A DNA stretch of 64,000 nt from Paraburkholderia sp. PGU19 (GTDB lineage: Bacteria > Pseudomonadota > Gammaproteobacteria > Burkholderiales > Burkholderiaceae), in assembly GCF_013426915.1 (NCBI RefSeq), contig NZ_AP023181.1:1178001-1242000 (forward strand), written 5' to 3'. Positions 46,892-49,038 of the stretch are shown here, one piece after another. A program made the translations under genes and the position numbers. A model generated the notes under the pieces. That model did no database searches. It was not told the origin of the DNA and worked only from the letters and a program-made list of their open reading frames with translations. The number at the start of each line of letters is the position of its first letter. Positions within the stretch are counted from its first letter, which is position 1.

Positions 46892-47146
46892 TCATTCTGC
46901 AACGCCAAGCAGATTCTCTATATGATCCTCAATCCGCGCGCATGCTTCGGCCACCGCCTGTTCCCTCGTTGCGGACGCTAGCGGAAAGACGAGACCATTT
47001 CCCTTGAACCTGCCCGCATGGTGAACCCATGCCTCGTAGGCAAAGACGCCCGATTCCCGGCGAACCAGGTTTACCGTTACGTCGTAGGTACGTTGCATTC
47101 CTTCCGTACGCCTATAACGAAATTTGTAGATCTCAGAATGAATCAT
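46892..47146 (-). CDS. Hypothetical small protein
   Basis: 84 aa, MIHSEIYKFRYRRTEGMQRT then YDVTVNLVRRESGVFAYEAW and a C-terminal helix REQAVAEACARIEDHIENLL. The pattern of two or three beta strands followed by a helix, with Trp-Val-His-His, looks like a genuine small folded protein. ATG 47146 has no strong ribosome site; the internal ATG at 47098 (MQRTYDV) is preceded by GGAAGG but too closely. I do not recognise the family. Neighbouring small genes at 47326 and 47657 lie on the same strand. Confidence 0.5.
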   Translation of the reverse strand: MIHSEIYKFRYRRTEGMQRTYDVTVNLVRRESGVFAYEAWVHHAGRFKGNGLVFPLASATREQAVAEACARIEDHIENLLGVAE

Positions 47147-47325: not shown

Positions 47326-47574
47326 TCAGTTTCGGGGGCTCAGGTGCTTTGATTGGTACACTACCGGAGCTCGCGGCAGCGGCTCATCATCCACAAAAGC
47401 CGTGCCGCACCGCACTGCGAACGCGAACGCCGACTGCGGATTCGCGAATTGGCCAAGATCTCCAAGTGAGGTTGCTTCGCCGTCTTCCTCAAGAATGCAA
47501 ACACGTGCTACAAACGTGTTACCGCTTCTCGCCACCGACGGCTGGATCGCTACCCCGTGATGATAGACAAGCAT
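47326..47574 (-). CDS. Hypothetical small protein
   Basis: 82 aa, MLVYHHGVAIQPSVARSGNT, FVARVCILEEDGEATSLGDL, GQFANPQSAFAFAVRCGTAF, VDDEPLPRAPVV. It has the look of a Burkholderia-type short protein (a strand pair, an acidic loop, then a helix containing Ala-Phe-Ala repeats). No catalytic motif is present. ATG 47574. Function unknown. Confidence 0.5.
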   Translation of the reverse strand: MLVYHHGVAIQPSVARSGNTFVARVCILEEDGEATSLGDLGQFANPQSAFAFAVRCGTAFVDDEPLPRAPVVYQSKHLSPRN

Positions 47575-47656: not shown

Positions 47657-47950
47657 TTAAAGGCGTAGCCGTGTAGTCGTCGCTACAGTAACCAGCTCAC
47701 GTACGTCGATGGACAGTACTGACGGTAAGGCCAATTGCAATCGCGATCGAAGTTCATTGACTTTCGTCGCGGGCGGGTCGAGAAGATCAATGCTCAGTGA
47801 CTCCGCGTTGAGCTCCCTGTCCATGCGGATTCTCCACTCGCCCACGCGTAGACCAAGCTGCATGAGGTTACGCCAAACCGGAACCGCACGCAGTTCGCTG
47901 ATTCCGGCGCGCACGACGATTCGATACACGTCGATGACTGTCCGCCTCAA
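47657..47950 (-). CDS. Hypothetical small protein, weak
   Basis: 97-codon frame from a TTG: AVPVWRNLMQLGLRVGEWRI, RMDRELNAESLSIDLLDPPA and a closing LQLALPSVLSIDVRELVTVA. The middle looks coding, but no ATG or clear ribosome site supports the start. Listed because it continues the run of small minus-strand genes here. Confidence 0.3.
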   Translation of the reverse strand: MRRTVIDVYRIVVRAGISELRAVPVWRNLMQLGLRVGEWRIRMDRELNAESLSIDLLDPPATKVNELRSRLQLALPSVLSIDVRELVTVATTTRLRL

Positions 47951-48498: not shown

Positions 48499-48529
48499 TT
48501 GCGCGGGTTTCCCCCGATGGGCCTATACT
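48499..48529 (+). promoter_or_regulatory. Putative sigma-70 promoter of the short RNA
   Basis: TTGCGC (48499-48504) and TATACT (48524-48529) form a -35/-10 pair with a 19-bp spacer. The -10 differs from TATAAT at one position; the spacer is slightly long. Transcription would start near 48535, just before the anti-SD-containing hairpin and terminator. Confidence 0.5.
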
Positions 48530-48534
48530 CAAAC

Positions 48535-48597
48535 CGTCTCCTCCGTATCACCTCCGGATATGGATTTAGCCCGCTTCATGCGGGCATTCTTTTTTTG
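48535..48597 (+). ncRNA. Short RNA with anti-Shine-Dalgarno loop (toxic-sRNA-like)
   Basis: About 62 nt from the predicted start to the end of the U-tract. The 5' end carries CTCCTCC. An 8-bp stem (48542-48549 with 48557-48564, one G-U pair) shows the loop ACCUCCG, a full anti-Shine-Dalgarno hexamer at 48550-48555. The stretch ATCACCTCC is identical to the 3' end of 16S rRNA. A strong terminator hairpin follows immediately. Promoter, short length, aSD loop and terminator together resemble the Rfam family described as betaproteobacterial toxic small RNA, which I recall as aSD-bearing RNAs; membership is not verified. It would be expected to bind ribosome sites or mRNAs and affect translation. 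Confidence 0.6.
48569..48596 (+). terminator. Rho-independent terminator
   Basis: GCCCGC (48569-48574), loop TTCAT, GCGGGC (48580-48585), then ATTC and seven T. A textbook intrinsic terminator, 170 bp before the DUF1488-like gene and so most likely ending the short RNA. Confidence 0.85.
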
Positions 48598-48768: not shown

Positions 48769-49038
48769 ATGGAAACCGTTGACAAAGAACCTGAAGTGCT
48801 TGCGAATCGTCGCGGCGTGATGTTTAGCCTGGTGCTTCGGAACGGCACTGTCACCTGCGTGATCGCCCTCACGGCGCTGGAAACGTTTTTTTGGCTCGAA
48901 CCTCGCGCTAGCGACACCGACGTTCTCAGGACGTTCGAAAACGGCTTTGCGCGGATTAGAGCCATCGCTGAGCGTAAGTTTCGAGCCCACCCGGCTACGC
49001 ATCTCAAGTTAACAGCAGAGGACTTCGCGCGGCCCTGA
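48769..49038 (+). CDS. DUF1488-like protein
   Basis: 89 aa from ATG 48769 (METVDKEPEVLANRRGVMFS). The layout resembles DUF1488: a short strand, an R-x-V-x-F strand, then TVTCVIALTALETFF with a conserved Cys and Glu, and a C-terminal helix FENGFARIRAIAERKF. The frame stays open far upstream to 48304, but that extension crosses the RNA gene and terminator, so the shorter start is preferred; GTG 48721 is another option. Function of the family is unknown. No operon partner. Confidence 0.5.
   Translation: METVDKEPEVLANRRGVMFSLVLRNGTVTCVIALTALETFFWLEPRASDTDVLRTFENGFARIRAIAERKFRAHPATHLKLTAEDFARP

Follow-up and report, generated by a model that had tools for sequence, protein, structure and literature searches.

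An unannotated small RNA of Paraburkholderia sp. PGU19 is probably a divergent accessory homologue of the RF02278 family, in which the 5' tail is conserved more than the loop

In the 64-kb window analyzed here, by which we mean the whole stretch of Paraburkholderia sp. PGU19 DNA under study, a predicted small RNA (sRNA) gene lies between promoter-like hexamers and a DUF1488-family gene. The features of this locus are the following:

48499..48504, + strand: -35-like hexamer TTGCGC, weak; TTGTGC in the orthologues of genomes G020 and G069, TCGTGC in that of G094
48524..48529, + strand: -10-like hexamer TATACT, identical in all four copies known at the window locus
48535..48593, + strand: small RNA gene, RF02278 homologue, spanning model positions 1-64
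48537..48544, + strand: 5' tail UCUCCUCC, putative anti-ribosome-binding-site (RBS) element, the same in 102 of 112 family copies
48542..48564, + strand: first hairpin of the predicted fold, 8-bp stem UCCGUAUC/GAUAUGGA with loop ACCUCCG at 48550-48556
48569..48596, + strand: intrinsic-terminator-like site from a pattern scan, a 6-bp G+C stem (48569-48585) followed by ATTCTTTTTTT
48769..49038, + strand: DUF1488-family gene, start codon inferred, 3' of the sRNA; its DNA adjoins the sRNA in three orthologous loci

Three small open reading frames (ORFs) 5' of the sRNA, at 46892-47146, 47326-47574 and 47657-47950 (-) of the window, are without Pfam hits.

A preliminary description of this DNA had pointed to a promoter-like pair, a hairpin, a CUCCUCC element 5' of that hairpin and a terminator, and each of these was borne out. 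Both hexamers of the TTGCGC/TATACT pair are present with a spacer of 19 bp, and as this spacer falls outside the 16-18 bp to which our promoter consensus scan was restricted, that scan called no promoter at the sRNA. Folding of 48535-48593 yielded -22.7 kcal/mol (z -4.8), a value equalled by none of 200 shuffles, and placed an unpaired CGUCUCC tail 5' of an 8-bp stem with the expected 7-nt loop ACCUCCG. The last three nucleotides of the tail UCUCCUCC double as the start of this first stem, and the CUCCUCC lies in the tail. The terminator was the sole site returned by the terminator scan; as 0.6 sites were expected in shuffles, the pattern by itself is weak evidence. The predicted RNA has the layout of the RF02278 family: an unpaired CU-rich 5' tail followed by two hairpins, of which the second is the intrinsic terminator.

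An Rfam scan by E-value matched 48535-48593 (+) to RF02278 from end to end (positions 1-64 of 64) with 48.5 bits and an E-value of 8.6e-9, a whole-element match far beyond chance. The family named in the preliminary description, the betaproteobacterial toxic small RNAs, was therefore the right one, although the copy narrowly fails on score: the RF02278 gathering cut-off is 50 bits, leaving it 1.5 bits short of the formal criterion, and a scan of the window at the gathering thresholds listed no family. As the match is end to end but sub-threshold, we claim homology to RF02278 and not a formal Rfam annotation. At E ≤ 1, RF02278 also matched 11 of the 14 control genomes, always below the cut-off; at 1e-4, the threshold that we therefore adopted, it matched none of the 14. 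A genus covariance model built from 57 family copies, none of them from the window locus, returned a single match in the 64-kb window at E-values up to 10, again at 48535-48593 (62.3 bits, E 1.5e-12, E-values of this model being rough). Two other families were considered and rejected, NmsRb (RF02877; 18.1 bits and E 2.3 against a cut-off of 52) and anti-hemB (RF02837; 19.5 bits against a cut-off of 49.5). Covariation of the stem, a check put forward with the preliminary description, came out in part: in the consensus of the 57 copies, three of ten pairs had changed on both sides with the pair kept, and the covariation term of -0.58 lends the family structure modest support. Left out of this alignment were the four window-locus copies, all accessory copies below 41 bits and the majority of redundant core copies.

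RF02278 comprises the double-hairpin RNAs ncS03, ncS05, ncS27 and ncS62 of Burkholderia cenocepacia, one of which has been called bdhR1 (PMC11722255). These four members are described as expressed RNAs of 57-92 nt with CU-rich unpaired stretches (PMC4603805, PMC5688073). The window copy resembles them in its length of about 60 nt, its CU-rich 5' tail, its 8-bp hairpin with a CU-rich loop, its GGAUU linker, its terminator hairpin and its membership of a dispersed multicopy family, but differs in its loop, which is ACCUCCG rather than the UCCUCCU of the model, in scoring 1.5 bits below the gathering score, and in its accessory locus. Comparable RNAs are found elsewhere. The CU-rich 5' part of S17/S17S of Bordetella pertussis is reported to resemble the RF02278 RNAs, although S17S, unlike the window sRNA, is the processed product of a longer RNA (PMC11722255). 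The sibling sRNAs NmsR/NgncR of Neisseria likewise carry CU-rich unpaired stretches complementary to the RBS regions of metabolic genes (PMC5688073), although the NmsR copies of Neisseria are tandem, unlike the window family. The anti-hemB RNA (RF02837) of Burkholderia likewise combines a CU-rich hairpin loop with a terminator, and the alphaproteobacterial sRNAs with CCUCCUCCC motifs were considered as further analogues.

The host genome holds seven RF02278 copies at E ≤ 1e-4, four of them above the cut-off, and the window copy is fifth among them. In the genus, every one of the 144 genomes searched carries the family, with 3-10 copies each, and in a sample of 150 genomes from the order 84 had at least one copy; both searches used stricter filters, with loss of weak matches. 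A figure of 3-5 copies per genome has been given for Burkholderia (PMC4603805, PMC5688073), and four members are listed for Herbaspirillum (PMC7011215). We collected all 112 copies from 14 genomes picked among those with at least seven copies, which are thus not representative, and sorted them into paralogue types (A, B, C, E, X and W) from sequence and locus lists rather than from a tree. Three core types are represented once each in every one of the 14 genomes and share one contig (C1) in the ten genomes with seven or fewer contigs, while non-core copies sit on C1 and elsewhere. The three core copies would belong to the main chromosome, accompanied by up to seven accessory copies in the genomes examined; the window copy is an accessory paralogue. 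Among the 112 matches at E ≤ 1e-4 in the 14 genomes, 32 score below 50 bits and are candidate genes. Two family copies (L158 and L164 of genome G125, contig C5) share a 22.9-kb contig, with about 5.4 kb between them. Among 72,556 plasmid records, the window sequence matched three (Paraburkholderia, Caballeronia and Burkholderia), and in each case less than 80% of the query was covered. A phage origin was rejected: a 40-nt core sequence, not that of the window copy, was without a match at E ≤ 1 in 50,697 phage records.

Upstream of the accessory copies, the string GGGTTTATACT, allowing up to two mismatches and lying 5-7 nt before the model start, is present in 36 of 54 mixed accessory copies; in 200 shuffles the count averaged 0.5 and never exceeded 5. 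The string is found in none of the 42 core copies and in one of the four at the window locus. Chosen by eye from the same sequences in which it was counted, it could represent a promoter type common to many accessory copies.

The window locus itself is rare, with matches of 87% or better across some 100 bp in only 4 of 144 genus genomes, the host included. When flanks were compared at ten loci, three (in G094, G020 and G069) shared them and the other seven matched in the sRNA only. Identity of the sRNA to the window copy is 54/59 in G094 and 52/58 in G020 and G069; the corresponding values are 35/40 and 34/40 for the promoter, 65/85 and 53/78 for the upstream non-coding DNA, which has many gaps, and 234/270 and 232/269 for the DUF1488 gene. 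The sRNA is thus more conserved than the upstream non-coding DNA (p 0.024 for G094, p 0.0035 for G020), with no significant excess of conservation over the DUF1488 gene (p 0.39 and 0.67). The orthologues in G020 and G069 have the loop GCCUCCA and, at 54.8 bits, lie above the RF02278 cut-off. In the closest orthologue, that of G094, the tail reads CUCCACC and the loop ACUUCCA, so that both perfect anti-Shine-Dalgarno (anti-SD) elements are gone, and the score is 37.2 bits, which raises the possibility that the window copy is drifting.

These observations bear on whether the window copy is a decaying or silent paralogue with no remaining role in the host strain. The narrow distribution of the locus, the sub-threshold score, the weak -35 hexamer and the altered anti-SD elements of G094 would all be expected of such a copy. 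Stem and terminator are, however, retained at the window locus, where one copy of the four shows drift in its anti-SD parts; G000, G020 and G069 have a perfect tail and keep CCUCC in the loop; the sRNA exceeds its upstream non-coding DNA in conservation; and of the two copies whose folding was tried, G000 and G094, both form both hairpins, the latter with one pair fewer. We regard decay as unlikely. The window element is real and, as a divergent accessory member of an sRNA family that is already known, probably functional.

The sRNA had been thought to lack any nearby partner gene, which does not hold as stated: the DUF1488 gene lies just downstream, and its DNA is conserved beside the sRNA in the three orthologous loci. 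Its frame is open in all four loci, and its C-terminus is altered in those of G020 and G069. The sRNA could on this basis be a cis-acting leader or attenuator of the DUF1488 gene, an idea to which the presence of DUF1488 DNA 3' of the sRNA in all four known copies of the locus and the short distance in G094 lend themselves. We judge this very improbable, since the distance between the two and the sequence of the spacer vary, other family members are scattered over replicons, and the published relatives tabulated in PMC4603805 (Table 3) are free-standing short transcripts; the DUF1488 gene is thought not to be part of the sRNA.

The preliminary description had drawn attention to the loop, in which the 9-mer AUCACCUCC equals the 3' end of 16S rRNA. 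This identity stands, as AUCACCUCC occurs within GGCTGGATCACCTCCTT, which is present seven times in the host genome at what we infer to be the 16S 3' ends. It is not a conserved feature: the 9-mer is found in the window copy alone among the 112 copies and is altered in all three orthologues, and 16S mimicry as a selected feature was rejected on these grounds. The CCUCC of the loop is itself present in only 45 of 112 copies, while the tail UCUCCUCC is identical in 102, making the 5' tail the most conserved single-stranded part of the family. When distinct sequences are counted once, the tail is kept in 84 of 94 and the loop CCUCC in 32 of 94. By type, CCUCC is found in the loops of 14/14, 0/14 and 13/14 copies of the three core types, 15/54 mixed accessory copies, 0/12 copies of a longer-loop type and 3/4 window-locus copies, where stem and loop were delimited by a simple base-pairing script with model position 8 as its anchor, so that the limits are approximate in odd copies. 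As the Rfam model contains both elements, the contrast between tail and loop is not simply an artefact of the search, although some ascertainment bias stays. The comparison suggests that the conserved pairing element in the host genus is the 5' tail and not the loop, and the earlier view of the loop as an active mimic of 16S rRNA is weakened by the loop counts and by the altered loop and tail of the G094 orthologue. In the literature consulted, mainly open-access texts, we found no account of tail-versus-loop conservation or of accessory copies in the host genus.

Two variants were also observed. A core copy of genome G108 (L056, 1501-1564) has three tandem TGTCTCCTCCA-like units in place of two, which suggests a tandem duplication of the 5' tail as the origin of the loop motif. 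Copies L025, L179-L186 and L188 form a separate, well-conserved type whose loop, for example AGAACUCCUUGA, is 12 nt long; in L025, the one copy of this type that was folded, the first hairpin is ambiguous.

An extended SD sequence, GGAGGAGAC, exactly complements the conserved GUCUCCUCC, and the pattern GGAGGAGAC-N0-6-ATG has 29 sites in the host genome versus one for the reversed pattern. Two of the 29 are sRNA genes on the other strand. Of the 27 that remain, 26 open ORFs of 100 aa or more, and the last, with an ORF of 25 aa, was dropped from the comparison. Transporter-type Pfam hits were obtained for 13 of the 26 ORFs (nine MFS, an L-lactate permease, a dicarboxylate symporter, KdgT and a solute-binding protein); the others hit DUF485, acyl-CoA dehydrogenase, APH, AMP-binding (two), FAD-linked oxidase, TPP enzyme, PQQ, KduI, MR_MLE, GST and a LacI regulator, with one ORF lacking a hit. 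As a control we used strong SD sites of the pattern GGAGGAGB-N2-8-ATG, taking 40 of the 78 listed by list position with their genes unseen (10/24, 10/11, 13/17, 4/19 and 3/7 on contigs 1-5). Twenty of these 40 start ORFs of at least 100 aa, the 20 shorter ones having been dropped before the Pfam scan, and six of the 20 gave transporter-type hits. The difference in transporters, 13/26 versus 6/20, is not significant (p 0.23), while that for MFS alone, 9/26 versus 1/20, has an uncorrected p of 0.028. ORFs of 100 aa or more are proportionally more frequent at target sites (26/27 versus 20/40, p 3.6e-5), but this is no evidence for the sRNA, as the control pattern is less specific: its reversed form matches 24 times against 78 sites found, versus 1 against 29 for GGAGGAGAC.

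A second genome, G107, has 20 GGAGGAGAC sites versus two for the reversed pattern, the SD control having been applied to the host genome only. Two of the 20 are sRNA genes. The 18 that remain include 16 at the start of ORFs of 100 aa or more, six of which gave transporter-type hits (three MFS, an L-lactate permease, KdgT and a solute-binding protein). Several sites lie at the same genes in both genomes (KduI, KdgT, L-lactate permease, PQQ dehydrogenase and TPP enzyme), and hits to APH, AMP-binding and LacI are likewise found in both. One site in G107 (L281, C3:1840419) places a sigma-54 activator gene behind GGAGGAGACAATG, and this GGAGGAGAC site is paralleled by S17 of Bordetella, whose 5' UTR targets include that of a sigma-54 activator (PMC11722255). 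The 6/16 of G107 slightly lowers our confidence in the target part and, with the 6/20 of the control, indicates that the leaning towards transporters may belong to strong SD genes generally. Enrichment of carbon genes as proof of targeting is likewise weakened by the 6/20 of the control and, as the control set leans the same way, target specificity is unproven. The sites fit occlusion of RBSs at carbon-uptake genes and are no proof of it.

The same results can be read as those of a global translation brake, in which the exposed anti-SD loop and tail would sequester the SDs of many mRNAs non-specifically. The tail carries CUCCUCC and the loop CCUCC, the tail complements strong SDs generally, and the control SD genes partly resemble the exact-match genes. 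Moreover, the family owes its name to the toxicity of other members cloned in E. coli (PMC4603805), and overexpression of ncS27 attenuates growth, while its silencing raises planktonic growth with no effect in biofilms (PMC4603805, PMC5688073). Neither the unconserved loop nor the single occurrence of the 16S-identical 9-mer is what a general brake would predict, however, and Bordetella S17 is reported to leave exponential growth of E. coli unimpaired, with modest impairment on entry into stationary phase (PMC11722255). In a review, NcS27 is given a part in balancing the shutdown of metabolism under nutrient deprivation, with effects that depend on the substrate (PMC10987360). General titration of SD sites, as envisaged in the preliminary description, also sits poorly with the available accounts of relatives, whose effects are predicted or reported on metabolic genes instead (PMC5688073, PMC10987360). 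We consider a global brake improbable, more so than decay.

We favour, as the likely explanation, that the window sRNA is an accessory RF02278 paralogue with its own promoter that acts in trans, through its 5' tail, on RBSs and so lowers the uptake and catabolism of carbon sources. A sigma-70-like promoter would give rise to an sRNA of about 60 nt ending at the intrinsic terminator, whose unpaired tail GUCUCCUCC, aided by the CU-rich loop, may pair with RBSs of the GGAGGAGAC type. Such pairing would block translation, uptake and catabolism of certain carbon sources would fall, and abundant sRNA would slow growth through this reduction. Of this explanation, the analysis shows the homology, the predicted fold, the conservation and the presence of sites with full complementarity at gene starts; the score under the gathering cut-off, the weak -35 hexamer and the 19-bp spacer were counted against it. 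Transcription of the window copy, pairing, repression and any dependence on Hfq are presumed. For relatives in the family, RBS pairing is predicted, carbon-metabolism targets are described and growth is attenuated (PMC5688073, PMC10987360), and 55-80% of the interactions predicted for the B. cenocepacia members lie around gene starts (PMC4603805, PMC5688073).

This kind of RNA has already been described, and the window sRNA is ordinary in kind, while the pattern across the family is modestly interesting. The window copy is an unannotated, sub-threshold addition to a family whose physiological role stays loosely defined, and the Rfam cut-off may miss other accessory copies of RF02278. The conservation of the tail points experiments to the tail and to carbon-uptake genes. 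More tentatively, and with some doubt on our part, the family may be an expanding, partly plasmid-borne multigene system that tunes repression of carbon uptake, in which the fixed tail would confer a common regulon and the varied loops would give individual copies extra targets of their own; if so, the window copy would be one loop variant of this multigene carbon-uptake tuning system.
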